The notes below the pieces were generated by a model. That model was not told the DNA's origin. It saw only the letters and a list, made by a program, of their open reading frames with translations, and ran no database searches. DNA of 64,000 nt from Cohnella cholangitidis. GTDB taxonomy: Bacteria; Bacillota; Bacilli; Paenibacillales; Paenibacillaceae. Location of the stretch: the NCBI RefSeq assembly GCF_014107495.1, contig NZ_CP041969.1, positions 6,063,501-6,127,500 of the forward strand. Direction: 5' to 3'. The position numbers were made by a program, and so were the translations under genes. This document shows, in pieces, positions 3,349 through 14,949 of this stretch; the stretch's first letter is position 1, and every line of letters begins with the position of its first letter.

Positions 3349-3780
3349 TTATTGAGCTCCGCCGCAGCTTCCGCCGCAGCTTCCGCCGCAACCGCAACCG
3401 CCTTTTTGCAATTCATTCGGTTCTGGCAGTCTGTCCAACTCTACGGTTTTGGTGAAATACTGACTGATCAGGCTGTGCATTTGACTGAATTCTCTCTGCG
3501 CGTATAGAAACTTGCGAATAACGTCGTTGGCGTAAATCGCAGCCTCTTCCTGTTGGTATTCGGCCACTTCCGTCTCCGTTAACGCCAAGCCTTGGTTCTC
3601 TTTGCGCTGCAGCGAGTGATGCTTCTCCATAAAATGTTCATATTGTTGTATCGCCAGTTCGTCCGAAGCGAAGTGATCGATCATGATCTTTAATGGCTGA
3701 TAGCTTTCTTGTTGCAGCAGAGCCGTGCAAAGTTCCTCCATTTTCTCCAAGACAGCACCCGTGTCCAGATGAATGACCAT
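3349..3780 (-). CDS. YlbF/YmcA (Com_YlbF) family protein with Cys-rich tail
   Basis: The protein has 143 residues, starting at the ATG at 3780 behind GGGGAGG; the reading upstream of this lies beyond the inferred transcription start. The body is an all-helical YlbF/YmcA-type domain (residues about 8-115). The C-terminus is unusual: GGCGCGGSCGGSCGG, four cysteines in a Gly/Ser tail. In Bacillus subtilis YlbF, YmcA and YaaT form a complex that carries Fe-S clusters, so metal or cluster binding by this tail is a reasonable guess. A perfect FNR-type box upstream (3862-3877) implies anaerobic induction together with the divergent reductase operon. Confidence 0.8.
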   Translation of the reverse strand: MVIHLDTGAVLEKMEELCTALLQQESYQPLKIMIDHFASDELAIQQYEHFMEKHHSLQRKENQGLALTETEVAEYQQEEAAIYANDVIRKFLYAQREFSQMHSLISQYFTKTVELDRLPEPNELQKGGCGCGGSCGGSCGGAQ

Positions 3781-3834
3781 CGTAAAAGCCTCCCCTATTG
3801 TGTGACGACATTTCGAACCGATCGGCTCCACACA

Positions 3835-3877
3835 ACTGTACAACGAACCTAGGCGAATAACTGTGACACGACTCACA
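3835..3877 (-). promoter_or_regulatory. FNR-type box and -10 for the YlbF-like gene
   Basis: TGTGA-CACGAC-TCACA lies at 3862-3877. Read on the minus strand, TACAGT at 3840-3835 forms a -10 whose centre is 32 nt from the box centre. This predicts a start near 3828 and a box at -41.5, the classical activating position for FNR/CRP proteins. Confidence 0.75.
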
Positions 3878-4099: not shown

Positions 4100-4143
4100 T
4101 GTGAGCCTAATCACAGAGACCACCCTAACAAGCGTGTTGTAAT
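4100..4143 (+). promoter_or_regulatory. FNR-type box and -10 for the reductase operon
   Basis: TGTGA-GCCTAA-TCACA lies at 4100-4115 and TGTAAT at 4138-4143. The centres are 33 nt apart, so the box lies at about -42 of a start near 4149-4150. There is no -35 element, as expected for an activator-dependent promoter. A further half-site (TGTGAA) is at 4072-4077. Confidence 0.78.
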
Positions 4144-4175: not shown

Positions 4176-5216
4176 ATGGATCGAGCTTTTGCGTCAAAAT
4201 TCGCCAAAATGGTTTTCTTGACCGTCATCGGTGTCATTATTCTGATGTACATCGGATCACGTTGGTTTACGCACATCGATTTGGCTTTATACGGCTATAT
4301 GGTCGGCACGTTCGTGTTTATAGCCGGGTTCTATTATCGGTTCCTCGCATGGGCCGAACGGCCGCCGACTAAACTGATCTTGAAAAAAGGGATCAAGCTG
4401 CTGTTCCGTAAGTCGACCCCGCAAACGACGGCGGAGCATTTGGTTACATATCGGTTTATTTGGAATCGCGGCTGGTACCGTTGGACGCAGCACGTCTTGC
4501 TCGGTTGGGGGTGCATCCTGTCGTGCTTCGTGACTTTCCCGCTCGTGTTCGGGTGGATGTACTTCACGATGGATGACAACGGCTACTACACGGTCGTAGG
4601 ATTCGGAATCGACATTATGAAAGTGCAGGCTGACGGAATTTTGGCGTTTCTGTTCTATAACGCGCTTAACATTACGGCGTTTATGGTGATCGGAGGCGTC
4701 AGCATGGCGCTTTATCGCAGGCTTAAGGATATGCAAGCCCGCGCGGAGCAGACGTTCGCCTATGATTTTCTTCCATTGTATCTTTTGCTGTTCATCAGCG
4801 TTACCGGTTTATGGCTTACGTTCAGCAACGTGTTCCTTCACGGGTTCGCTCATCCGCTCATGAGCGTCATTCACCAATGGTCGGTCATCCTCACTTTGAT
4901 TTATTTGCCTTTCGGCAAGCTGGCCCATATTCCGTTCCGTCCGATGAGCGTGCTGGCGCGCAATTATCGCGAGCATTACGGGGAGCAGCAGATGAAGGCG
5001 TGCAAAGTGTGCGGAACCGAATTCGTATCGGCGGAGCAATCCAATGACGTCATTGCGGTATTGAAACAGAACGAGATCGAATTCAGCATGAAGGAAGGCT
5101 TCCATCTGGCGGAGTTGTGCTTGCCTTGCAGGCGCAAATATCGCATGTCTCGCTTCGCCGGAATTCCCACTCATGAGATCAAGATTAAGGAGGCTAACCA
5201 GAATGCCAGAGGATAA
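4176..5216 (+). CDS. Membrane cytochrome b-like subunit with C-terminal Cys ribbon
   Basis: The protein has 346 residues from the ATG at 4176 (AAGGAG 7 nt upstream); the ATG at 4170 is too close to the site, and 4146 precedes the inferred transcript. There are about six hydrophobic segments (near 12-28, 37-58, 105-130, 152-178, 198-220 and 228-250). Histidines in or near them (H106, H222, H226, H233, H251) could ligate heme b. The last 80 residues are soluble, with CKVC (276-279) and CLPC (315-318), a zinc-ribbon or redox-type four-Cys site. As first gene of the operon it is the likely quinol-side anchor for the molybdenum reductase. The heme assignment is inferred; NarI and HdrE are only analogies. 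Confidence 0.7.
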   Translation: MDRAFASKFAKMVFLTVIGVIILMYIGSRWFTHIDLALYGYMVGTFVFIAGFYYRFLAWAERPPTKLILKKGIKLLFRKSTPQTTAEHLVTYRFIWNRGWYRWTQHVLLGWGCILSCFVTFPLVFGWMYFTMDDNGYYTVVGFGIDIMKVQADGILAFLFYNALNITAFMVIGGVSMALYRRLKDMQARAEQTFAYDFLPLYLLLFISVTGLWLTFSNVFLHGFAHPLMSVIHQWSVILTLIYLPFGKLAHIPFRPMSVLARNYREHYGEQQMKACKVCGTEFVSAEQSNDVIAVLKQNEIEFSMKEGFHLAELCLPCRRKYRMSRFAGIPTHEIKIKEANQNARG

Positions 5217-7386
5217 ATTCTTCAAAGTCGTCGCGAACAAACATCATCCTAGCGAATCGCTCGTTCCCACCCATTGCGCTTATTGCGGGATGCAATGCGG
5301 AATGAACCTTCGCGTAGACAAGTCTACCAACAAAATCATAGGCGTGGAGCCTCGATATGATTGGCCCGTGACGCTAGGGAAGATGTGTCCTAAAGGCGTG
5401 ACCGCCTACCAACAAACGAACCATGACGATCGATTGCTTCGTCCTTTGATTCGCGATAACCCGGCATTAAAAGGTACAAAGGAAGGGTTCCGCGAGGCTA
5501 GCTGGGAAGAAGCTTACGATCTGATCGTCAGGAAATTCCATAACCTGCAAGCTTTGCACGGCAAAGATTCGTTGTCCGTATTCAGCGGCGTGTCCATGAC
5601 GAACGAAAAATGTTATTTGACGGGAAAATTCGCTCGCGTTGCTTTACAGACAAGATACATCGATTACAACGGCCGGTTCTGCATGTCAAGCGCGGCTGCG
5701 GGCTTCATGCGTTCGTTCGGCGTCGATCGGGGATCGACATTGCCGTGGACGGACTTGCATGAAACGGATTGCTTGTTCATCGCGGGGAGCAATACGGCCG
5801 AATGTCACCCAACGTCGATGTTCCGCGTCTGGGAAGTACAGAATCGCGGAGGCTACTTGATCGTCGCCGATCCGAGGGAGACGCCGATCGCCAGAAGAGC
5901 CGATATTCATCTGGATTTGCGACCGGGAACCGATCTTGCGTTAGCGAACTGCATGGTGAACCTACTCGCGCAGAACGGATATGCGGATGAGGAGTTCGTG
6001 AGGCTGCATACGAACGGATACGATGAAATGCTCGAAGTGGTAAAAGAGTTCACTCCGGAATATACGAGCGAGATCACCGGGATTGCTCCCGAGAAGTTAA
6101 TTCGAGCGGCCGAGATTTACGGGAAGGCGCCCAATGCGGTCGTCATGTTCGCTCGCGGAATCGAACAACAGCACAAAGGTTCCGATAACGTGTCCGCCTA
6201 TACGAATATGTGTCTCGTCACCGGTAAGATCGGACGTCCCAAGTCGGGAGTCGCGACCTTTACCGGTCAAGGGAACGGACAGGGCGGACGCGAACACGGA
6301 CAGAAGGCGGACGCGCTTCCGGGTTATCGCAAAATAACGAATCCGAAGCATGTCGAAGAGGTATGCAAGGTGTGGGGCATTCAACCGGAGGAAATGCCGC
6401 AACCAGGGGTATCGGCTTACGAGATGTTCGAGTTGATGACGGATAAAACGATTCGCGCCTTGTACTTGCTTTGTTCTAACCCGGCAGTATCCGCGCCGAA
6501 TCAAAATTACGTTCGCGAAGCTTTCAAAGGCTTGGATTTCATGGTTTGCGCCGATTTCTATTTATCGGAATCCGCCGAATTCGCCGATGTAGTCCTGCCT
6601 GCCGTGACTTGGTCCGAGGATGAAGGGACCGTTACGAATTTGGAGGGGCGGATCATCAAGATCAACAAAGCCCAGGAACCGATCGGACAGTCGAAGCCCG
6701 ACTGGCTGATCCAGGTTGAGCTCGCGGAGAGACTCGGACGGGGGCAATACTTCCGCCATCTTAAGACCGCGAGAGACGTCGCGGACGAATTCCGTCTCGC
6801 CTCCAAGGGAGGGTACGCCGATTATTACGGTGCCACGTGGGATAAGATCGAAAAGCAGAACGGCGTCTTCTGGCCGTGCAAGAACGAAGAGGATCCCGGC
6901 ACTCCGCATATGTTCTTGGACAAGAAGTTCTACTATCCGGACGGAAAGGCGAAATTATGCGCGCTTCCTTATCGGCCGCCCGCGGAAGAGCCGTGCGAGG
7001 AGTATCCTCTGCGTTTAACGACGGGCCGGGTCGTCTATCATTATTTGTCCGGTAACCAGACTCGCAGAATCAAATTCCTCAAAGACATGTGCCCGGAGCC
7101 TTACGTCGAGGTTCATCCGATACAAGCGGCACGGTACGGGATCGTTCACGAAGAAGTCGTCAGACTCTACTCGCGTCGCGGGGAAGCCTTCTACAAAGTT
7201 AAAATTACCGAAGCGATTCGCGAGGATACCGTGTTCGTGCCTTATCATTTCGGCCATGATCAATCGATTAATTTGCTGACGATTCCCGCGCTCGATCCGA
7301 TGTCCCGCATGCCGGAATTCAAAGCGTGCGCGGCGCAGATCGAGAAAATCCCAGTCCGATCTCCCGTCGAAGCTGGACGATCCTAA
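5203..7386 (+). CDS. Molybdopterin oxidoreductase, NasC/NapA-type (probable nitrate reductase catalytic subunit)
   Basis: The protein has 727 residues. The start at 5203 has AAGGAGG upstream and overlaps the previous gene by 14 nt. N-terminal C25-x2-C28-x3-C32 with C62 (MCPKG) binds a [4Fe-4S] cluster. The sequence RFCMSSAAAGF places Cys160 as the molybdenum ligand, as in NapA and assimilatory NasC/NarB enzymes rather than the Asp of NarG. Further bis-MGD domain motifs include FARGIEQQHKG, GQGNGQGGREHGQKAD and a C-terminal Molydop_binding domain (LTTGRVVYHYLSGNQTRR). No signal peptide is present, so it should be cytoplasmic. NarK and NirK neighbours favour nitrate as substrate; another oxyanion or formate is not excluded. 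Confidence 0.88.
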   Translation: MPEDKFFKVVANKHHPSESLVPTHCAYCGMQCGMNLRVDKSTNKIIGVEPRYDWPVTLGKMCPKGVTAYQQTNHDDRLLRPLIRDNPALKGTKEGFREASWEEAYDLIVRKFHNLQALHGKDSLSVFSGVSMTNEKCYLTGKFARVALQTRYIDYNGRFCMSSAAAGFMRSFGVDRGSTLPWTDLHETDCLFIAGSNTAECHPTSMFRVWEVQNRGGYLIVADPRETPIARRADIHLDLRPGTDLALANCMVNLLAQNGYADEEFVRLHTNGYDEMLEVVKEFTPEYTSEITGIAPEKLIRAAEIYGKAPNAVVMFARGIEQQHKGSDNVSAYTNMCLVTGKIGRPKSGVATFTGQGNGQGGREHGQKADALPGYRKITNPKHVEEVCKVWGIQPEEMPQPGVSAYEMFELMTDKTIRALYLLCSNPAVSAPNQNYVREAFKGLDFMVCADFYLSESAEFADVVLPAVTWSEDEGTVTNLEGRIIKINKAQEPIGQSKPDWLIQVELAERLGRGQYFRHLKTARDVADEFRLASKGGYADYYGATWDKIEKQNGVFWPCKNEEDPGTPHMFLDKKFYYPDGKAKLCALPYRPPAEEPCEEYPLRLTTGRVVYHYLSGNQTRRIKFLKDMCPEPYVEVHPIQAARYGIVHEEVVRLYSRRGEAFYKVKITEAIREDTVFVPYHFGHDQSINLLTIPALDPMSRMPEFKACAAQIEKIPVRSPVEAGRS

Positions 7387-7404
7387 CGAAAGCAGGAGGG
7401 ACCG

Positions 7405-7968
7405 ATGAAACAATACTTATATATCGAGATGGACAACTGTATCGGTTGCCGAAGCTGTCTGGCCGCATGCACGCAATGCGGCGGCCACGATCAACGCAAC
7501 CGGAACTACGTATACGACGTGAATCCATTAGTCAATCGCCAAACGATCCCGCTCATGTGCTTGCATTGCGTGAACCCGGCTTGCGCGAGAAGTTGCCCGG
7601 CGCAAGCGATACAGATTACCCCGGAAGGCGCGGTGTTATCGGCACTGGTGGAGAAATGCATCGGATGCCAGAATTGCACGATAGCATGTCCTTACGGGAT
7701 TCCGAAGTTCGATACGGAGCAGAATCTCATGTACAAATGCGACTTGTGCTACGATCGAACGAAAGAAGGCATTCCGCCGATGTGCGCATCGGTATGTCCG
7801 ACGAACACGCTGCAATGGGTTACGGAAGATGAATTGAAAGAGAAGAAAGAGCAGCATCGTCTGGGAAAATGGATGTCCAGCCACGATCCGTATGACCCTC
7901 TTGAGGGCGATACGAACGTGAAAATCAGCTTGCCGGGCATTCTCCAAGGAAAGCAAAAGCTATTCTAA
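7405..7968 (+). CDS. Four-cluster ferredoxin subunit (NrfC/DmsB-type)
   Basis: The protein has 187 residues and starts 18 nt after the catalytic subunit with AGGAGG. It has the regular Cys spacing of electron-transfer subunits of the NarH/DmsB/NrfC/HycB group: CIGCRSCLAAC (12-22), CLHCVNPACARSC (52-64), CIGCQNCTIAC (85-95), and CDLC with a later CASVC (112-130). That allows four [4Fe-4S] clusters. It should pass electrons between the membrane partners and the molybdenum subunit. There is no signal peptide, consistent with the cytoplasmic side. Confidence 0.92.
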   Translation: MKQYLYIEMDNCIGCRSCLAACTQCGGHDQRNRNYVYDVNPLVNRQTIPLMCLHCVNPACARSCPAQAIQITPEGAVLSALVEKCIGCQNCTIACPYGIPKFDTEQNLMYKCDLCYDRTKEGIPPMCASVCPTNTLQWVTEDELKEKKEQHRLGKWMSSHDPYDPLEGDTNVKISLPGILQGKQKLF

Positions 7969-7999
7969 GCAACCATTAAGATGATGGGGGTGAATCCCA

Positions 8000-8539
8000 A
8001 TGGAACAAGATCGGAAAAAGGACAATAATCACGTTCCTTTCGATGAAGATAACTACACGCATAACATTCACAAGGCCAACGAACGCAGTCTGGACCGCCG
8101 CGGCTTTTTGAAAATGATGGTGGGAGCAGCCGGAGTATTCGCCGTATCGACATTGCCTTGGGGGACGATCGCGGTCAAGGAGTTGACCGGACTTCAGAAC
8201 AAGAAATACGCGGACAAGAAAATCGTGGACGTTAACTCGTTGCCCGTGGGAGAAGCAGTAGAGTTTGCGTATCCCGGCGAACACGATTCCGCGTTGCTGA
8301 TCAGGCTCGGCGACAACGAGTTCAAGGCGTATCAAAATGCATGCACCCATTTGAAATGTCCGGTTTTCTGGAGCAAGGAAGACGGAGAGATGATCTGTCC
8401 TTGCCATCATGGCGTGTTCGATCCGAAATCGGGCGTTCCGACGGCAGCGGGTCCTCCCAGAAGGCCTTTGCCCGAGGTTGAACTGAAGCGGGAGCAGGGT
8501 GCGATCTTCGCGACGGGAGTGAAACGATATGAAGCGTAG
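8000..8539 (+). CDS. Rieske [2Fe-2S] protein with twin-arginine signal
   Basis: The protein has 179 residues and follows GGGGGTGA. DRRGFLKM at 32-39 matches a twin-arginine motif and is followed by a hydrophobic segment, so the domain should lie outside the membrane, probably anchored. The Rieske motif is C115-T-H117-x2-C120 and C133-P-C135-H136. C115, H117, C133 and H136 are the cluster ligands. C120 and C135 form the disulfide typical of high-potential, bc1-type Rieske proteins. A Rieske subunit beside a Mo reductase resembles haloarchaeal nar operons and suggests a quinol-oxidising role. Confidence 0.9.
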   Translation: MEQDRKKDNNHVPFDEDNYTHNIHKANERSLDRRGFLKMMVGAAGVFAVSTLPWGTIAVKELTGLQNKKYADKKIVDVNSLPVGEAVEFAYPGEHDSALLIRLGDNEFKAYQNACTHLKCPVFWSKEDGEMICPCHHGVFDPKSGVPTAAGPPRRPLPEVELKREQGAIFATGVKRYEA

Positions 8540-8717
8540 CTACCGCGGGGTTATTTGGTTAAGTCTAGTTCTGCTGCTGAACATTGCTTGCACTCAACAA
8601 ACCGTGAACGCCTTCTTCTACGAGAAATATGAACGGGTTGTTCTGTTCGCGACGTTGAATATCGTATTATTTCCGATTGCCCTATGGATCTATCGCCGGG
8701 AGCGTGACGTGAGATGA
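8529..8717 (+). CDS. Small two-TM membrane protein
   Basis: The protein has 62 residues. Two hydrophobic segments (about 8-25 and 37-55) are separated by an acidic/basic loop and followed by a basic tail RRERDVR. It overlaps the Rieske gene by 11 nt and the transporter gene by ATGA, so it is translationally coupled in the operon. CTQQ after the first segment resembles a lipobox only weakly. I do not recognise the family; a small stabilising subunit of the membrane complex is a guess. Confidence 0.65.
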   Translation: MKRSYRGVIWLSLVLLLNIACTQQTVNAFFYEKYERVVLFATLNIVLFPIALWIYRRERDVR

Positions 8718-10243
8718 AGGTAAAGAAGCTGCAACTGCCGTTACAGACGGTTAGCTTGGTATTGGGGTTCATGGTTTGGGTCATTCTGTCGTCGTTAATG
8801 CCGTTTATTAAAGAAGATATCGTATTATCCTCGTCCCAATTGGCTTGGGTTACCGCGATTCCGATTCTATTCGGTTCGGTCATGCGGATTCCGGTCGGCT
8901 ATTGGACGAACCGCTATGGCGCCCGCAAGCTGTTCATGATTAGTTTTATTCTGCTGCTAGCTCCGATCTTCTGGGTTAGCCGAGCGGACTCGTTCGCAGA
9001 CTTGATCATCGGCGGTGTGTTTCTAGGCATCGGCGGTGCGGTATTTTCCGTCGGCGTAACCTCGTTGCCGAAATATTACCCGAAAGAGCGTCACGGATTC
9101 GTGAACGGGATCTACGGAATCGGGAATCTCGGAACGGCGATATCCGCATTCGGAGCGCCAGTCGTTGCTAGCGCGCTGGGATGGTCTCAAACGGTTATGG
9201 TCTATAGCATTATCTTGATCGCTCTTGCCGGATTGAACTTCATGTACGGCGATCGCGAAGAAACGAAAGTCAATACGCCGATCATGGAACAAATTAAATC
9301 CGTCTCAAGCAACGGGAAGCTTTGGCTGCTATGTATGTTTTACTTCCTGACCTTCGGTTCTTTCGTCGCGTTCACGGTGTACTTGCCGAACTTCCTAGTC
9401 AGCCATTTCGATCTGGCGAAGGTGGATGCCGGGATGAGAACGGCCGGATTCATCGTGCTCGCTACGGCTATGCGGCCGATAGGCGGTTGGCTCGGAGATC
9501 GCTTTAATCCGTTCAAAATTCTAATGTTCGTGTTCGCGGGATTAACGATTGCCGCAACTCTGCTTTCTTTTGCTCCATCCATGCATCTGTACACGGTCGG
9601 GTGCTTAACCGTCGCCTTGTGCGCGGGTACGGGCAACGGAACGATCTTTAAGCTTGTGCCTCTATATTTCACCAAGCAAGCAGGTATCGCGAACGGCATG
9701 ATCTCGGCTATGGGCGGTCTGGGAGGGTTTTTCCCGCCGTTGATCCTTACGATCATTTTCAACGCTACCGGGCACTATGCGATCGGCTTCATGGCGTTGT
9801 CCCAAGTCGCGCTAGCAAGCTTGATTCTTGTCATCGAAATGTTCTATCAGGAAAGATTGTCGCTGTCCGCCAATATCGTCGAGAATACGATCGAGGGAAT
9901 CATGATCACGGACGTCAAAGGAATCATTCGTTCCGTGAACGCCTCTTTTACCCGATTGACCGGCTACACATCGGAAGAAGCGATCGGTAAAACTTCGAAT
10001 CTATTGAAATCGGGAAGGCAAGATAAAAAGTTTTACGAGCAAATGTGGGACGATCTGCGCAATCAAGGCTTCTGGCAAGGAACGATCTGGAACCGCAAGA
10101 AAAGCGGGGAGATCTACTTGGAATGGCTTACGATCAGCGCGGTTAAGAACGATGCGGGAGAGATCGTTTATTACTCCGGCATGTTCAGCGACATTACGCG
10201 GCAGCAGATGAACTTGAAGGAAGCGGGTGGAGCCCATTCCTAG
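8714..10243 (+). CDS. narK: NarK-type nitrate/nitrite MFS transporter fused to a PAS domain
   Basis: The protein has 509 residues. Residues 1 to about 380 form a 12-TM major facilitator with the NNP (NarK/NasA) signatures GNLGTAISAFGAPVV and MGGLGGFFPP, plus GYWTNRYGARK after TM2. After the last TM, from about 385 to 500, comes a PAS domain (TIEGIMITDVKGIIRSVNAS, then GYTSEEAIGKTSNLLKSG and a PAC-like FSDITRQQ). There is no kinase or output domain behind it. The transporter part should import nitrate or export nitrite; the PAS may sense heme, flavin, redox state or a ligand. Normal NarK proteins stop near 400 residues. Confidence 0.9.
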   Translation: MKVKKLQLPLQTVSLVLGFMVWVILSSLMPFIKEDIVLSSSQLAWVTAIPILFGSVMRIPVGYWTNRYGARKLFMISFILLLAPIFWVSRADSFADLIIGGVFLGIGGAVFSVGVTSLPKYYPKERHGFVNGIYGIGNLGTAISAFGAPVVASALGWSQTVMVYSIILIALAGLNFMYGDREETKVNTPIMEQIKSVSSNGKLWLLCMFYFLTFGSFVAFTVYLPNFLVSHFDLAKVDAGMRTAGFIVLATAMRPIGGWLGDRFNPFKILMFVFAGLTIAATLLSFAPSMHLYTVGCLTVALCAGTGNGTIFKLVPLYFTKQAGIANGMISAMGGLGGFFPPLILTIIFNATGHYAIGFMALSQVALASLILVIEMFYQERLSLSANIVENTIEGIMITDVKGIIRSVNASFTRLTGYTSEEAIGKTSNLLKSGRQDKKFYEQMWDDLRNQGFWQGTIWNRKKSGEIYLEWLTISAVKNDAGEIVYYSGMFSDITRQQMNLKEAGGAHS

Positions 10244-10559
10244 CGAATATTCGGTTGATCTTGTATTCATTCGGCCGGAGTCGGAAATGCCGATTCCTTA
10301 CCCCGACTTGGAAGATCATATGAAAGCTTTGTTCAAGCGCCCTCATTCGTGTTTCGTGGAGCGCAGAAGAGAAGATCGGCTAGAAATCGCTACCGTTCAG
10401 ATCAATGGATTGTCGGCCGCATGGGCCGAGGAGCGGGAAGTCATTGCGCATATGGAAGAGCGGATGCCGATAGAACATTTGGAATGTCTGAGCGGCTACC
10501 GGGTTCAGGTTATCCCTAAGGAACATCACGGAACATGCGCGCTGCGGAAAAGAGGTTGA
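10227..10559 (+). CDS. Conserved-looking small protein of unknown function (operon gene 7)
   Basis: The protein has 110 residues from a GTG at 10227 that overlaps the transporter gene by 17 nt, with AAGGAAGC before it. It is soluble and acidic/basic mixed, with a single Cys pair spread widely (RPHSCFVERR and GTCALRKRG). No domain is recognised. Overlapping coding in an FNR-driven operon suggests an accessory or maturation role for the reductase. Confidence 0.65.
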   Translation: MEPIPSEYSVDLVFIRPESEMPIPYPDLEDHMKALFKRPHSCFVERRREDRLEIATVQINGLSAAWAEEREVIAHMEERMPIEHLECLSGYRVQVIPKEHHGTCALRKRG

Positions 10560-10561
10560 AC

Positions 10562-10852
10562 ATGGACTGGGAGACACGGTTGAATGCTTATCAAGGGTAT
10601 AAGATGGAGGTCATCATCGAAGACGTGGCAGGCACCGATCCGTTGGCGCCGCCGACAGCTCGCACGCTTCATCATGTTCGCTTAGCGGAGGAGCAAACGC
10701 ATCTTCAATTTTACTTCAACGAGACCCAGTTTCTGGCGATTCCCGTCTATGACGATGATAGGACCCGGGTAGAACAAACAGGAGCGGAGACGATATTTTG
10801 CTCGCATGACGACTCCGCTAAGCTAATCTATAAGCTGCGATTTATAGATTGA
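10562..10852 (+). CDS. Small protein of unknown function (operon gene 8)
   Basis: The protein has 96 residues. The ATG at 10562 has AGAGG about 7 nt upstream and lies 2 nt after the preceding stop. The sequence is beta-rich and acidic (YKMEVIIEDVAGTDPLAPPT, then VRLAEEQTHLQFYFNETQFL), with no Cys motif apart from one Cys near residue 80. I do not recognise it. As last gene of the operon it is followed by the palindromic repeat array that probably ends transcription. Confidence 0.65.
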   Translation: MDWETRLNAYQGYKMEVIIEDVAGTDPLAPPTARTLHHVRLAEEQTHLQFYFNETQFLAIPVYDDDRTRVEQTGAETIFCSHDDSAKLIYKLRFID

Positions 10853-10878
10853 TTCATGCTATACCCACTGCCCAGCGC

Positions 10879-11010
10879 CGAAATAACGGTGCTGGGCACC
10901 GTTATTTCGTGGCAAATGAGGTGGAGAACGCGAATAACGGTGCTGGACACCGTTATTTCGTGGTAAATGAGGCGGAGAGCGCGAATAACGGTGCTGGGCA
11001 CCGTTATTTT
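10879..11010. repeat. Three tandem 51-nt palindromic repeats
   Basis: AATAACGGTGC and its complement GCACCGTTATT form hairpins at 10879-10909, 10933-10957 and 10984-11008, exactly 51 nt apart. The spacers are near-identical (CGTGGCAAATGAGG/CGTGGTAAATGAGG types). They lie between convergent genes, so they may end transcription from both sides. The third copy is followed by TTTTTAT. The regular period suggests a mobile or amplified intergenic repeat like REP/BIME elements. Confidence 0.85.
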
Positions 11011-11033: not shown

Positions 11034-12011
11034 TTACTTGCGATCGAGGCCATCCTTGGTTACCCGAAGAATCCCGACGGCTCCCTTGGAAGCGTGGTTG
11101 AACTGGTGGGTGACGATCGGATAGTCGCCTTCTTCCGTAACCGTTAGTTCTATGACCGCTCCGCCGCTTGCCGGAAGCATCATCGTCTGAAGCCCGTACA
11201 AAATATTGTTCGGGTTTCCGTCGACGTATACCCGGTCCATGATCGTCCCAACCACATGGAACGAAGACACTTCGTTCGGTCCTACATTGTTGACGTACAA
11301 CCGCACTTTATCGCCGACTTTGGCCAACAGCGGTTGTTTGGTAAGCGCGAAGTCGCTGCCGTTAAACACGACGTACTCCGGTTCTTCGTTAAGGAAAGCT
11401 TCGAAATCATTTTCTTTATACCATTCGCTCTGCACGATCGTGTATTCGCGGTCGATTTCCTTATCCGTCGGATAACCGTCTTTGGGTTCTACGATGATGA
11501 TGCCGTACATGCCGTTGGCGATATGCGCGAGTACCGGCTTCGTTCCGCAATGATACATGAACACCCCTGGAGAATTGGCAGGGTACGTGAAGGTGCCTTG
11601 CTCATTCGGCATGACATCGATGAATTTTTTGCTCGGAGCGGCATGTACGGCATGGAAATCCATCGAGTGGGGGATCGCCGGATCTAGATTGCGAAGCGTG
11701 AAGTGGATCGTATCGCCTTCCTTGAACCTCAGTACCGGACCGGGTGCGGTACCATTAAATGTCCATGTGTTATAGAATACGTCGTCGGATATTTCGACAT
11801 CGGTCACCTGCGCGGTCATTTCGATATTCACTACGTTACCTTCCCTAGAAACGACAGGCTCGACGGGAGGCTGATTGATTTTCTCCCGAACCTGGCTAGG
11901 TTCGGCTTGGACGATCTCGGTGGAAGCTTCTTTGACGGTTTTGGCCGTGCAGGCTTCAAGCGGTAACGCTAGTACTACGATAGCGATGGCGATCTTGGAC
12001 AATCTGAACAT
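11034..12011 (-). CDS. nirK: Copper-containing nitrite reductase, lipoprotein NirK
   Basis: The protein has 325 residues from the ATG at 12011, preferred over a GTG at 12020 because GAGAGGG lies 8 nt upstream. LALPLEAC gives a lipoprotein signal with Cys21 as the lipidated residue. Two cupredoxin domains follow. HSMDFHA, YHCGTKP and LAHIANGM supply the His/Cys/His/Met type 1 and His type 2 copper ligands, and the second domain has SSFHVVG and VTHQFNHASKG for the remaining histidines. It reduces nitrite to NO outside the membrane. It is convergent with the nitrate reductase-like operon, which would supply nitrite. An upstream imperfect dyad (12035-12049) may regulate it. Confidence 0.88.
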   Translation of the reverse strand: MFRLSKIAIAIVVLALPLEACTAKTVKEASTEIVQAEPSQVREKINQPPVEPVVSREGNVVNIEMTAQVTDVEISDDVFYNTWTFNGTAPGPVLRFKEGDTIHFTLRNLDPAIPHSMDFHAVHAAPSKKFIDVMPNEQGTFTYPANSPGVFMYHCGTKPVLAHIANGMYGIIIVEPKDGYPTDKEIDREYTIVQSEWYKENDFEAFLNEEPEYVVFNGSDFALTKQPLLAKVGDKVRLYVNNVGPNEVSSFHVVGTIMDRVYVDGNPNNILYGLQTMMLPASGGAVIELTVTEEGDYPIVTHQFNHASKGAVGILRVTKDGLDRK

Positions 12012-12355
12012 GTAAAACACCCTCTCTTTAAGTTGGTGATTTTTTCACATATCCGGAGAATAGAAAATCCGCAACTCATTCGAAGGTCTTGTTGCAGACG
12101 GGGTGTAATTCCCTGCTAGTAGGGGAACGTTCTTCTCTCTAAATTCACCTTGATCTTATGATGGCGACAGGGGGACAAATGCGATACGGAACACATTTCG
12201 TGGGATGTCGGGAATTTGTAACATTTACCAGTAAATTTCGATCATTCCATGAACAAAGCCTTGTTTCCTACCCAAGTGTGATTGCCCTCACAGTGTTATC
12301 GCCCTCCTTTCATTAGGATAAACTCTGCGGACAGAATGCGGGAGGGAGGAAAACG
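12012..12355. promoter_or_regulatory. Divergent control region nirK / radical SAM gene
   Basis: The gap holds the FNR-type box at 12277-12292. It also has a near-match TGTGA-N5-TCACC (minus strand, 12049-12035) just ahead of the nirK ribosome binding site, a dyad ATTTAC-CA-GTAAAT (12223-12236), and an imperfect repeat TTCCC-N8-GGGGAA around 12109-12126. No ORF is credible here. Confidence 0.5.
12277..12319 (+). promoter_or_regulatory. FNR-type box and -10 for the radical SAM gene
   Basis: TGTGA-TTGCCC-TCACA lies at 12277-12292 and TAGGAT at 12314-12319, with centres 32 nt apart. This puts the box at -41.5 of a start near 12326, 30 nt before the ATG. Confidence 0.75.
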
Positions 12356-13453
12356 ATGTTGCCCTTTACTCAAGATAGAGATTATAACGAGAATCCGTTT
12401 ATCGTCATCTGGGAAGTAACGCGCGCCTGCGCGCTAAAGTGTCTTCATTGCCGGGCGGAAGCCCAGTATAAAGCGGATCCTCGGCAACTTACGTTCGAGG
12501 AGGGGAAGAGACTCATCGACGACATAGCGGAGATGAATCATCCGTTGTTCGTGTTTACGGGTGGCGATCCCTTAATGCGGCCGGATCTGTTCGATCTCGC
12601 TCGGTATGCGATCGAGCAGAAGAAGCTGCCCGTTTCGATGACGCCGAGCGCGACGCCGAAGGTTACGCAAGCCGCTATTGAGAAAGCGAAGGAGTTCGGA
12701 TTGTCCCGTTGGGCTTTCAGCCTTGACGGTTCAAGTGAAGAAATTCACGACCACTTCAGGGGAACGAAGGGCTCTTACCGGTTAACGATGAGAGGAATCG
12801 AGTATTTGCAGCAATTGCAAATTCCGATCCAAGTGAACACGACCGTGTCGAATTACAATCTTCATGATCTGGAAGCGATCGCGGTGAAGGTCAAGGAGAT
12901 GGGGGCGGTTTTGTGGAGCGTTTTTTTCTTGGTGCCAACCGGCAGAGGAATGGAAAAGGATATGATTACCCCGAATCAGCACGAAGAAGTCATGAAATGG
13001 TTGTGCCAAGTTCAACAGAGAATGCCTTACGGAGTGAAAGCGACGGAAGCTCCCCACTATCGACGAGTGTTCTTGCAAGAAAGGAAACGATTGGGAGAGC
13101 AACAAGCGGATTCCGGCATGAAAAGAGCGGATCTTCTTGGACGCGCTCATAAGGGAGTCAATGACGGAGACGGATTCGCGTTCATCAGCCACATTGGCGA
13201 CGTATACCCGAGCGGTTTCCTTCCCGTCGCTTGCGGTAATGTGAGAGAACGGTCGTTAAAGGAAATATATCGCCATTCCCCGGTCATGAAACAGCTTCGC
13301 GACAAATCGTTGCTGAAGGGGAAGTGCGGAGCATGCGAATTCAAGGATTTGTGCGGAGGATCCAGGGCGCGCGCGTATGCGGTCACGGGCGACTATTTGG
13401 AAAGCGATCCTTATTGCGCTTATATCCCGAAAGGTTGGACAGATCACGTCTAA
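12356..13453 (+). CDS. Radical SAM/SPASM enzyme related to AhbD/NirJ heme enzymes
   Basis: The protein has 365 residues and starts behind GGAGGGAGG. C25-x3-C29-x2-C32 (CALKCLHC) binds the SAM [4Fe-4S] cluster, and TGGDPLMRPD is the GGE-like motif. The C-terminal KCGACEFKDLCGG and a final YC supply SPASM-type ligands. The family is close to TIGR04053 proteins and to AhbD/NirJ, which modify heme precursors. It is 71 nt upstream of a CgoX/HemY-type oxidase and under an FNR-type promoter. An oxygen-independent heme-synthesis step, such as decarboxylation of coproheme when oxygen-linked ChdC cannot act, is the best guess. A peptide-modifying role cannot be excluded. Confidence 0.82.
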   Translation: MLPFTQDRDYNENPFIVIWEVTRACALKCLHCRAEAQYKADPRQLTFEEGKRLIDDIAEMNHPLFVFTGGDPLMRPDLFDLARYAIEQKKLPVSMTPSATPKVTQAAIEKAKEFGLSRWAFSLDGSSEEIHDHFRGTKGSYRLTMRGIEYLQQLQIPIQVNTTVSNYNLHDLEAIAVKVKEMGAVLWSVFFLVPTGRGMEKDMITPNQHEEVMKWLCQVQQRMPYGVKATEAPHYRRVFLQERKRLGEQQADSGMKRADLLGRAHKGVNDGDGFAFISHIGDVYPSGFLPVACGNVRERSLKEIYRHSPVMKQLRDKSLLKGKCGACEFKDLCGGSRARAYAVTGDYLESDPYCAYIPKGWTDHV

Positions 13454-13524
13454 AAAGACTGTGATAGCGGTGCTGCAGATATACGGGTGATCCTTATGTT
13501 CGCGAGGAAGGGAGATAGTGCGGC

Positions 13525-14949
13525 ATGGAAAGTTCGGTCAGGAAAATCGTCGTCTTAGGCGGGGGAATCACCGGCCTAAGCGCAGCGTACTACGCGAAAA
13601 AAAAGTTCGAGGAAGAGCGGATTCCGGTAGAAATCACGATCTTGGAGAAGAGCGATCGGCTGGGCGGGAAAATAAGGACTCTGCATCGCGACGGTTTTAC
13701 GATCGAGAAGGGGCCGGATTCTTTCCTGGCGCGCAAGCTGCCCATTATAGATTTGACTAGAGAGCTAGGGCTTGAAGACGAGCTCGTGGCCACTAATCCG
13801 AATGCAAAAACCAACTATATTTTGCGCAAGGGAATGCTGCATCCCATGCCGTTAGGGCTCGTGCTCGGCATTCCGACAGCGGTAACGCCTTTTATGAAGA
13901 CGCGGCTTATCTCGCCGGCGGGTAAACTACGGGCGGCACTCGATTTTGTGCTGCCAAGAAGAAAAGACGAAGGCGATGAATCGTTGGGCGGTTTTATCGA
14001 ACGGCGCTTGGGTAAAGAAGTGCTAGACAACATAACGGAGCCTCTACTCGCGGGAATCTATGCGGGGGATACTCAACAACTGAGCATGTATGCTACTTTT
14101 CCGCAATTTAAACAGCTCGAAAAGAAGCACAGGAGTCTAATCTTGGGGATGCTGGCCGGCAAGAAAAATCCGCCGCAGACTAGCGAATTGCCGGACATCG
14201 CCAAGAGAAGCATGTTCCTTACTTATAAGGGGGGGCTCGTCACGCTAGTGGATCGGCTGACGGATCGATTGCATCCTGTTCGGATCTTTACCGGCCACGG
14301 CGTCATGCAGCTCAAGCGGGAAGATCGTCAATACCGACTAACGCTCGATAACGGCACAGACATTCATGCGGACGGATTGATCATGGCCATTCCCGCGTTC
14401 GAAGCAGCGAAACTATTGATGGAATCGCCCGTCATGTATGGATTGGGACGAATCCAATACGTATCGGTGGCGAATATCGCTTTGGCGTATAAGAAGGAAC
14501 ATATTCGGTATCCTCTTAACGGTTCGGGGTTTGTCGTCCCCCGCAAAGAAGGCAGGATGATAACGGCCTGTACCTGGTCATCGTCTAAATGGCTTCATGC
14601 CGCGCCTCCAGGTGCCGTGCTGCTGCGAACATACGTAGGACGCTCGGGAGCGCAAGAATGGGTTGGCTTAACGGACGAGGAACTGATAGACGGGGTGCGC
14701 GAAGACTTGCGCCTAACGATGGGGATATCGGGTGAACCGCTATTCTCGGAAATTACCCGCTGCCATCGTTCCATGCCGCAATATCCGGTCGGTCATCCCG
14801 ATCAATTGAAGAAGTGGAGAACGTATCTGGCGGAGAATAAGCCGGGATTAATTTTATGCGGAGCGGGATACGGGGGAGTAGGCATTCCGGATTGCGTGGA
14901 TCAAGGGAAAAAAGCCGCCGAACAAATGTTAGGTTATCTCTTGAAGTGA
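13525..14949 (+). CDS. hemY: Coproporphyrinogen/protoporphyrinogen III oxidase, CgoX/HemY type
   Basis: The protein has 474 residues, the usual length for Bacillus HemY. The FAD-binding N-terminus reads KIVVLGGGITGLSAAYYAKK. It is followed by EKSDRLGGKIRT and the conserved GPDSFLARK. The C-terminal FAD motif lies in LCGAGYGGVGIPDCVDQGKK. In Firmicutes this enzyme oxidises coproporphyrinogen III to coproporphyrin III with oxygen as acceptor in known cases. Here it is downstream of an FNR-boxed radical SAM gene, away from any hemE/hemH genes in the window, so it may be an extra copy serving microaerobic heme production. Confidence 0.9.
   Translation: MESSVRKIVVLGGGITGLSAAYYAKKKFEEERIPVEITILEKSDRLGGKIRTLHRDGFTIEKGPDSFLARKLPIIDLTRELGLEDELVATNPNAKTNYILRKGMLHPMPLGLVLGIPTAVTPFMKTRLISPAGKLRAALDFVLPRRKDEGDESLGGFIERRLGKEVLDNITEPLLAGIYAGDTQQLSMYATFPQFKQLEKKHRSLILGMLAGKKNPPQTSELPDIAKRSMFLTYKGGLVTLVDRLTDRLHPVRIFTGHGVMQLKREDRQYRLTLDNGTDIHADGLIMAIPAFEAAKLLMESPVMYGLGRIQYVSVANIALAYKKEHIRYPLNGSGFVVPRKEGRMITACTWSSSKWLHAAPPGAVLLRTYVGRSGAQEWVGLTDEELIDGVREDLRLTMGISGEPLFSEITRCHRSMPQYPVGHPDQLKKWRTYLAENKPGLILCGAGYGGVGIPDCVDQGKKAAEQMLGYLLK

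Follow-up and report, generated by a model that had tools for sequence, protein, structure and literature searches.

A conserved operon of Cohnella cholangitidis encodes a candidate respiratory nitrate reductase with a NasC-type catalytic subunit, a NarI-like anchor and a Rieske protein

Gene content of the operon

We analysed a 64,000-nucleotide window from the 6.4-Mb genome of Cohnella cholangitidis (contig NZ_CP041969.1, positions 6,063,501 to 6,127,500), which carries an operon for a molybdenum (Mo) enzyme accompanied by a membrane anchor, a four-cluster ferredoxin and a Rieske protein. These four core genes, referred to below as the cassette, are real and conserved and most likely specify an unrecognised dissimilatory nitrate reductase variant among the molybdoenzymes built from catalytic, four-cluster and anchor subunits. 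Open reading frame translations recovered eight co-directional frames between 4176 and 10852, just as an initial annotation of the sequence had proposed (Table 1). With the preferred starts, four of the seven junctions overlap, namely anchor/Mo subunit (by 14 nt), Rieske/small protein, small protein/NarK and NarK/orf110; a fifth does so only if orf105 starts at 10535 instead of 10562, and the start near 10562, which matches the orf105 homologues, is probably the correct one. Ribosome-binding sites back the starts at 4176 (ATG, with aaaggagaa upstream), 5203 (ATG, preferred over 5173, with aaggaggc upstream) and 7405.

Table 1. Features of the operon and its flanks (coordinates are those of the window).
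Feature	Coordinates	Strand	Evidence or context
Candidate FNR-type box TGTGA-N6-TCACA, perfect	4100..4115	+	5' of operon
Membrane anchor, 346 aa, six-helix NarI-like, C-terminal CxxC...CxxC domain	4176..5216	+	
Mo catalytic subunit, 727 aa, NasC-type, Cys ligand, without signal peptide	5203..7386	+	NCBIfam, tree, signature
Four-[4Fe-4S] ferredoxin, DmsB/NrfC-like, 187 aa, without signal peptide	7405..7968	+	
Twin-arginine disulfide-type Rieske protein, 179 aa	8000..8539	+	Pfam Rieske, E 1.6e-9
Hydrophobic membrane protein, 62 aa, overlapping Rieske stop codon	8529..8717	+	
NarK-family nitrate/nitrite transporter with C-terminal PAS domain	8714..10243	+	TIGR00886, PAS matches
orf110, accessory protein, no family match	10227..10559	+	
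orf105, accessory protein, predicted PH-like beta barrel, nearest B. subtilis YojF	10535..10852	+	
Terminator-like hairpins in 51-bp tandem repeat	10869..11009	+	3' of orf105
NirK-type copper nitrite reductase, convergent, outside the complex	11034..12020	-	TIGR02376, 202 bits, cut-off 296
Second candidate FNR-type box, perfect	12277..12292	+	between nirK and radical-SAM gene
Radical-SAM protein, TIGR04053	12356..13453	+	496.7 bits, cut-off 395

The catalytic subunit has a Mo-ligand cysteine, Cys-170 (numbered from 5173), and no signal peptide, and both points of the initial annotation were thereby verified. Among NCBIfam models it scored best against NasC (NF047855), with 850 bits against an equivalog cut-off of 1100. 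Cut-offs were likewise not reached for formate dehydrogenase (TIGR01591, 623.9 bits against 666), haloarchaeal NasA (374 against 1000), NapA (321-327 against 904-931; for TIGR01706, 320.6 against 930.55), AioA (154.9 against 359) and NarG (TIGR01580, 49.8 against 1084). In a tree of 33 rows, 17 of them from cassettes, the cassette proteins were joined by the assimilatory NasC of the Cohnella genome and the NirBD-linked Nas of Deinococcus aquaticus in a 19-row clade supported at 100/100. Outside this clade lay the four annotated formate dehydrogenases, NapA and the larger Nas enzymes; the grouping with formate dehydrogenases that the initial annotation had named as fatal to its proposal did not appear. 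The Mo-ligand signature is Cys-Met in all 17 cassette rows, in both NapA rows and in the other Nas rows except Rhodococcus (Cys-Thr). The four formate dehydrogenases have Cys-His (two), Sec-His or Cys-Gln at this site, and the two distant paralogues of the genome have Cys-Asn and Cys-His. Tree and signature together rule out a formate dehydrogenase or another MopB identity; judged by its sequence, the catalytic subunit is a member of the NasC/NasA nitrate-reductase lineage. A plasmid of D. aquaticus (L116:2738-9544) encodes a Mo subunit from this clade beside nirBD and a transporter gene; no anchor or Rieske gene is annotated in the vicinity, and this Mo subunit is an assimilatory counterpart.

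The ferredoxin contains 17 cysteines, sufficient for the four clusters initially assigned to it. The Rieske protein carries the motifs CTHLKC and CPCHHG behind an N-terminal twin-arginine sequence (DRRGFLK), and its CxHxxC and CxCH motifs with both disulfide cysteines mark it as disulfide-type. Among 77 relatives retained after a length and identity filter, the first motif, CTHL[KRQ]C, occurs in all, the second, CPCHHGxF, in 76 and the twin-arginine pattern in 73, so that its initial description also holds across the family. Its best matches are the arsenite oxidase small subunit AioB (59.3 bits in NCBIfam, below the cut-off of 95.7; PDB entry 8r3a, E 7e-15) and the 3fou/1nyk Rieske protein (E 2e-13), which we take to be from Thermus; neither provides a confident family. 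In the Rieske proteins of bc1 complexes, a serine and a tyrosine raise the potential of the cluster. Gly and Phe occupy these positions in the cassette protein, which suggests a moderate potential.

The anchor had been described as a cytochrome-like multi-helix protein. A membrane anchor it is, with six predicted helices and an extra C-terminal domain containing four cysteines (CxxC...CxxC); its likeness is to NarI and not to the cytochrome b of bc complexes. Homology to NarI extends over the last three helices, where H233 aligns with NarI H187 and H251 with H205, and NarI is the best structural match of the protein, the Pfam score lying below cut-off. The anchor is thus probably a NarI-like cytochrome b, and the NarI homology rules out the major facilitator superfamily (MFS) transporter suggested by the annotation of Deinococcus plasmids. 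Public records label the Deinococcus anchors 'MFS transporter'; the one that we scanned (L005:8878-9990) matches the NarI family weakly (E 6e-4). Averaged over 95 anchor rows, loop charges are +8.5 for loop 2-3, +1.9 for loop 4-5 and +3.1 for the stretch after the last helix, against -2.0 for loop 3-4. The four-Cys domain is therefore predicted to be cytoplasmic, on the same side as the Mo and iron-sulfur subunits, which lack signal peptides.

This topology bears on a possible extracytoplasmic enzyme. Arsenite oxidase AioA/AioB is exported by the twin-arginine translocation (Tat) system in 'hitchhiker' fashion, and the Mo and iron-sulfur subunits of the cassette could likewise leave the cell together with the Rieske protein as a nitrate reductase of opposite topology. 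The Rieske protein is the only core subunit with a Tat motif, and its closest family, albeit below cut-off, is AioB. We nevertheless regard such an arrangement as quite unlikely: the loop charges place the four-Cys domain of the anchor in the cytoplasm, the NarK-type transporter encoded in the operon fits a cytoplasmic site, and in the tree the catalytic subunit lies closest to assimilatory enzymes, which are cytoplasmic.

The remaining proteins of the operon offered fewer clues. The NarK-PAS protein scored 216 bits against TIGR00886, below the cut-off of 311.7, and its PAS domain best matches those of NifL/DibA type; it is possibly a redox-sensing transporter. The window's orf110 product had no Pfam match at E 0.1 and no NCBIfam match at E 0.01, and Pfam returned nothing for the orf110 and orf105 proteins of the window or for the few homologues scanned. 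A family scan of 45 orf105 rows gave isolated weak matches in two single rows only, and the predicted structure of this protein, a PH-like barrel with YojF as its nearest relative, did not clarify its function. No NarJ match was found among the eight operon proteins in the Pfam and NCBIfam scans.

Conservation, regulation and co-occurring enzymes

The anchor occurs in 9 of 60 relatives and in 2 of 398 genomes sampled across the phylum, the genome of the window being included in both counts. Scanning contigs with nine anchors gave 464 matching stretches, 398 of which encode a relative, and the best 80 of these 398 were analysed. By title they belong to Bacillales genera, except two metagenome-assembled genomes titled only Bacillota and one Pseudomonas sp. 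ISL-84. The contig of the latter (L079) has a cassette order and gene sizes near those of Cytobacillus loci such as L082, and the genome is probably mislabelled or contaminated.

The four-gene core order (anchor, Mo subunit, ferredoxin, Rieske) is present in 79 of the 80 related loci, and the 80th ends at a contig edge. A first count found homologues of the catalytic subunit in 80 loci, of the Rieske protein in 79, the 62-aa membrane protein in 77, the ferredoxin in 76, orf105 in 75 and orf110 in 52; NarK-PAS matches were counted in 60, which may include PAS-only kinases, and full-length NarK-PAS relatives in 49. Rechecking six loci added the ferredoxin in L029, L051 and L054 and the small membrane protein in L050 and L075; L085 ends 1.4 kb beyond the anchor, and L054 and L067 contain interrupted frames. 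Four Deinococcus plasmids encode an anchor of 34-35% identity, and the three that were opened all show the order anchor, Mo subunit, 4Fe-4S protein, Rieske, small protein and nitrate/MFS transporter. Recurring in two phyla, the gene order is well beyond chance. The initial annotation had staked its proposal on the presence of these neighbours in relatives, and they were there. Genes for catalytic, four-cluster and anchor subunits, the set that defines a complex iron-sulfur molybdoenzyme, thus lie together and are conserved.

Cassettes of two types can share a genome. Paenibacillus phyllosphaerae has a type II cassette that is complete and, a few kb away, the remnant of one of type I (L075:22-4266 and L075:8908-10566), which keeps the anchor, the Rieske domain and the small protein without catalytic and ferredoxin genes. 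Both types, each with a full core, are found in Cohnella panacarvi (G010). A small frame 3' of the type II core of P. phyllosphaerae (L075:4484-4843) resembles truncated hemoglobin by eye and possibly serves nitric oxide. In a distant cassette (G500, L114:12601-13344), a gene for a NUBPL/ParA-type iron-sulfur carrier stands between the ferredoxin and Rieske genes.

Perfect TGTGA-N6-TCACA boxes occur three times in the 64 kb (4100, 12277 and 3862), against 0.06 expected from mononucleotide shuffles; a search allowing one mismatch was weaker against dinucleotide shuffles, in that 3 were found against an expectation of 0.92 and 7 of 100 shuffles gave at least as many. The upstream sequences of 78 related anchors were searched (two of the 80 were dropped for want of sequence); 26 contain a perfect box (0.019 expected per upstream window) and 38 a box in which no more than one edge is relaxed (0.029 expected), the expectation being taken from the rest of the loci. 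In many Bacillaceae loci there are instead downstream genes that match in size those of L105, whose products are a fragment of a histidine kinase, a NarL-like regulator, an NreA-like protein scoring 104 bits against a cut-off of 175, and a PAS kinase. Of the 80 loci, 34 contain an NreA-like gene, and 67 have either a relaxed box or NreA. The presence of FNR-type boxes or NreA-like regulators suggests that anaerobiosis or nitrate controls expression.

These signals also bear on the substrate. MopB enzymes switch substrate readily and the Rieske protein recalls arsenite oxidase, so that one might think of a quinol-linked enzyme that reduces an oxyanion other than nitrate (chlorate, selenate or arsenate) or of a reversed oxidase (nitrite or arsenite). 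Either is improbable in the face of the nitrate-reductase lineage with its Cys-Met signature, NarK within the operon and NirK alongside it, and the linked sensor in L105, whose best match, below cut-off, is the nitrate-sensor family NreA.

Other nitrate and nitrite enzymes were sought in 55 cassette genomes (the nine anchor-bearing relatives plus the genomes of 47 of the 80 loci, minus L030) and in a comparison sample of 51 relatives without the anchor, which was not matched to the 55. NarG scored above cut-off in 5 and NapA in 3 of the cassette genomes, none of which had both; 47 had neither, and the cassette may be the sole respiratory nitrate-reducing enzyme in many relatives. Window-like NirK was found in 12 cassette genomes, 8 of which have neither NarG nor NapA. 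No NosZ exceeded the cut-off in the genome of the window, and NO reductase was not searched for; a complete denitrification pathway was rejected on this ground.

Predicted outside while the Mo site is inside, the Rieske protein might stand apart from the path of electrons to nitrate and serve a periplasmic acceptor or donor, for instance NirK, the other core subunits then forming an ordinary NarI-type nitrate reductase. An outer role would spare the electrons a detour. We consider such a division of labour improbable: the Rieske gene goes with the core in 79 of the 80 loci and on the Deinococcus plasmids, while window-like NirK accompanies the cassette in only the 12 of 55 genomes.

A candidate menaquinol:nitrate oxidoreductase

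From the computed gene set, its conservation, the lineage of the catalytic subunit, the NarI homology, the motifs and the loop charges, we infer that the subunits form a complex, that the anchor contains heme and oxidises quinol, that electrons flow towards nitrate as the substrate and that the Rieske protein has a part in this. The core genes would then specify a menaquinol:nitrate oxidoreductase that is bound to the membrane, has its active site in the cytoplasm and serves dissimilatory (anaerobic) nitrate reduction, a reading that the NarK-type gene inside the operon also supports and to which we assign a probability of roughly 0.6. Oxidation of menaquinol would take place on the outer side of the NarI-like anchor, where the Tat-exported, membrane-tethered Rieske protein could carry or gate electrons next to the outer heme site. 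Electrons would cross the membrane via heme b, with H106/H251 as the inner site and H233 with H33 or H162 as the outer one. From there the four-Cys cytoplasmic domain and then the four-cluster ferredoxin would relay them to the [4Fe-4S] cluster and the molybdenum-bis(pyranopterin guanine dinucleotide) cofactor of the NasC-type subunit, where nitrate would be reduced to nitrite in the cytoplasm. NarK-PAS would exchange nitrate and nitrite, and the nitrite could be passed to NirK outside or NirB inside. The initial annotation had the Rieske protein bridge quinol and anchor. It might be the first acceptor of quinol electrons beside the outer heme, a splitter of electrons between two acceptors, or the servant of another partner.

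Several observations weigh against this proposal. The family scores of the anchor are below cut-off in both Pfam and NCBIfam, its heme ligation is deduced, and its predicted structure is poor (pLDDT 64, pTM 0.50), too poor for heme-ligand distances. The 17 cassette rows form a clade of their own at 80/55 only, so that the cassette may have arisen once or more than once, and 13 of the 80 loci have neither a relaxed FNR box nor NreA. NarG is as rare without the cassette (4/51) as with it (5/55); there is no depletion, and the idea that the cassette replaces NarG is unsupported. NirK relatives (E below 1e-50) are somewhat commoner with the cassette (12/55 against 5/51, in unmatched samples), weak grounds for a strong nirK-cassette linkage, though nirK adjoins the operon here.

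A bolder version of the proposal, which we regard as speculative and unlikely, has menaquinol give up its two electrons on the outer side to different takers, one to the Rieske protein and one through heme b of the anchor to cytoplasmic nitrate. The Rieske electron would continue to a periplasmic acceptor or return into the complex. Nitrate respiration in Bacillota and Deinococcus would thereby be coupled to a step resembling a Q cycle, which is absent from NarGHI. The outer heme ligand would have been exchanged in evolution, being H33 where position 162 is Asn and H162 elsewhere. If true, this would amount to a second, independent way to build a Rieske/cytochrome b quinol oxidase.

The catalytic subunit has its closest relatives in assimilatory NasC, and a related system has been assigned an assimilatory role in the literature. 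Heylen and Keltjens (2012; PMC3475470) reported that nasC of Bacillus bataviensis is linked to iron-sulfur and Rieske genes and called it assimilatory; the section on this system does not mention an anchor. The same paper gives 80% identity of this nasC to a Paenibacillus gene, also names 1NLA3E, terms the iron-sulfur gene a 'hybrid iron sulfur protein (HCP)' and reads the system, which is not linked to NarK, as alternative assimilatory. NarK is likewise unlinked in the Neobacillus locus L094. Given the 80% identity to the Paenibacillus gene and the gene order, the B. bataviensis system is probably the same as the cassette, unless its iron-sulfur gene encodes a true hybrid cluster protein. Thus the claim of the initial annotation that the enzyme was undescribed stands in part: the nasC/iron-sulfur/Rieske linkage was noted in 2012, and for the whole system neither a description nor experimental evidence was found in the open-licence PubMed Central literature seen.

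Following the 2012 proposal, the NasC-type subunit would be fed by the iron-sulfur and Rieske proteins and deliver nitrite to NirBD, and membrane-fed assimilation is conceivable. We consider an assimilatory role unlikely. The genome of the window has a separate nirB-narK-nirB-nasC cluster whose NasC scores 1208 bits, above the cut-off of 1100, so that assimilation seems to be served by a separate enzyme. The FNR boxes and the NreA linkage indicate anaerobic or nitrate control, nirK adjoins the operon, and a NarI-like anchor would fit respiration better.

The gene set is unlike the standard nar and nap operons, as the initial annotation had it, and unlike nas as well. With NarGHI the cassette shares the four-cluster ferredoxin and the NarI-like anchor, the proximity of NarK and Nre-type regulators at many loci, and presumably the cytoplasmic Mo site, heme b and the quinol-to-nitrate logic. 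It differs in its NasC-type catalytic subunit with a Cys ligand (727 aa, against about 1240 aa for NarG), in the six predicted helices and four-Cys domain of its anchor, in the added Rieske protein and in having no NarJ match. The Bacillus-type NasC shares the clade, the Cys-Met active site and the lack of a signal peptide; in contrast, the cassette enzyme falls short of the NasC cut-off, is partnered by anchor, ferredoxin and Rieske instead of NirB-type proteins, and shows FNR/Nre-type signals. Like the cassette, AioAB combines a Mo subunit with a Tat-exported Rieske small subunit. The cassette has an anchor, a four-cluster ferredoxin and a Cys at the Mo site, which is without a protein ligand in AioA (PMC7331816), and its AioB score is below cut-off.

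The initial annotation had drawn an analogy to haloarchaea, whose pNar is an extracytoplasmic Nar with a Rieske protein and a bc1-type cytochrome b. The analogy is loose: nitrate reductase genes are clustered with Rieske and cytochrome b genes in both, but the cassette anchor is NarI-like rather than cytochrome-bc-like. A Rieske/cytochrome b pair is also included in the Nap cluster of Caldithrix abyssi (PMC5317091); there, as in haloarchaea, the cytochrome b is bc1-type and the enzyme is Nap or an extracytoplasmic Nar, whereas the Mo subunit of the cassette is NasC-type.

A 2020 phylogeny (PMC7331816) describes a clade of NasA/NasC, AioA and NapA without four-cluster and anchor subunits, and this paper and PMC10100899 treat NasA/NasC as exclusively assimilatory. 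The gene content of the cassette contradicts the former statement for the NasA/NasC clade and, if the proposed function is confirmed, also the latter. A 2024 survey of denitrification in Bacillota (PMC11388526) scored nitrate reduction by narGH and napA; surveys of this kind would miss the first step in 47 of the 55 cassette genomes, including 8 of the 12 with window-like NirK. In Sulfobacillus, NasC was reported without NasB and with an unclear donor (PMC4378227). The cassette would offer a tractable case for studying how respiration took over a cytoplasmic assimilatory enzyme and what a NarI-type anchor gains from a Rieske protein.

Neighbouring genes

Terminator-like hairpins at 10869-10898 and 10983-11009, directly 3' of orf105, likely mark the end of the operon together with a 51-bp tandem repeat (2.5 copies, 10882-11009) that lies between the operon and nirK. 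The repeat units form the hairpins, the second of which lies wholly and the first partly inside the repeat. Beyond the operon come the convergent nirK and then the divergent radical-SAM gene, which is found near the anchor in 15 of the 80 related loci, a count that includes general radical-SAM cross-matches. The next-best match of the radical-SAM protein is the anaerobic heme b synthase AhbD (361 bits, below cut-off). Behind the FNR-type box at 12277, the region 12356-14949 comprises the radical-SAM gene and a gene that by eye resembles the protoporphyrinogen-oxidase type; the pair could provide an oxygen-independent heme supply. On the other side of the operon, at 3349-3876, lies a divergent YlbF/YmcA-family gene whose product has a C-terminal tail rich in Gly and Cys; the 5' end of the gene carries a perfect FNR-type box (3862-3877).

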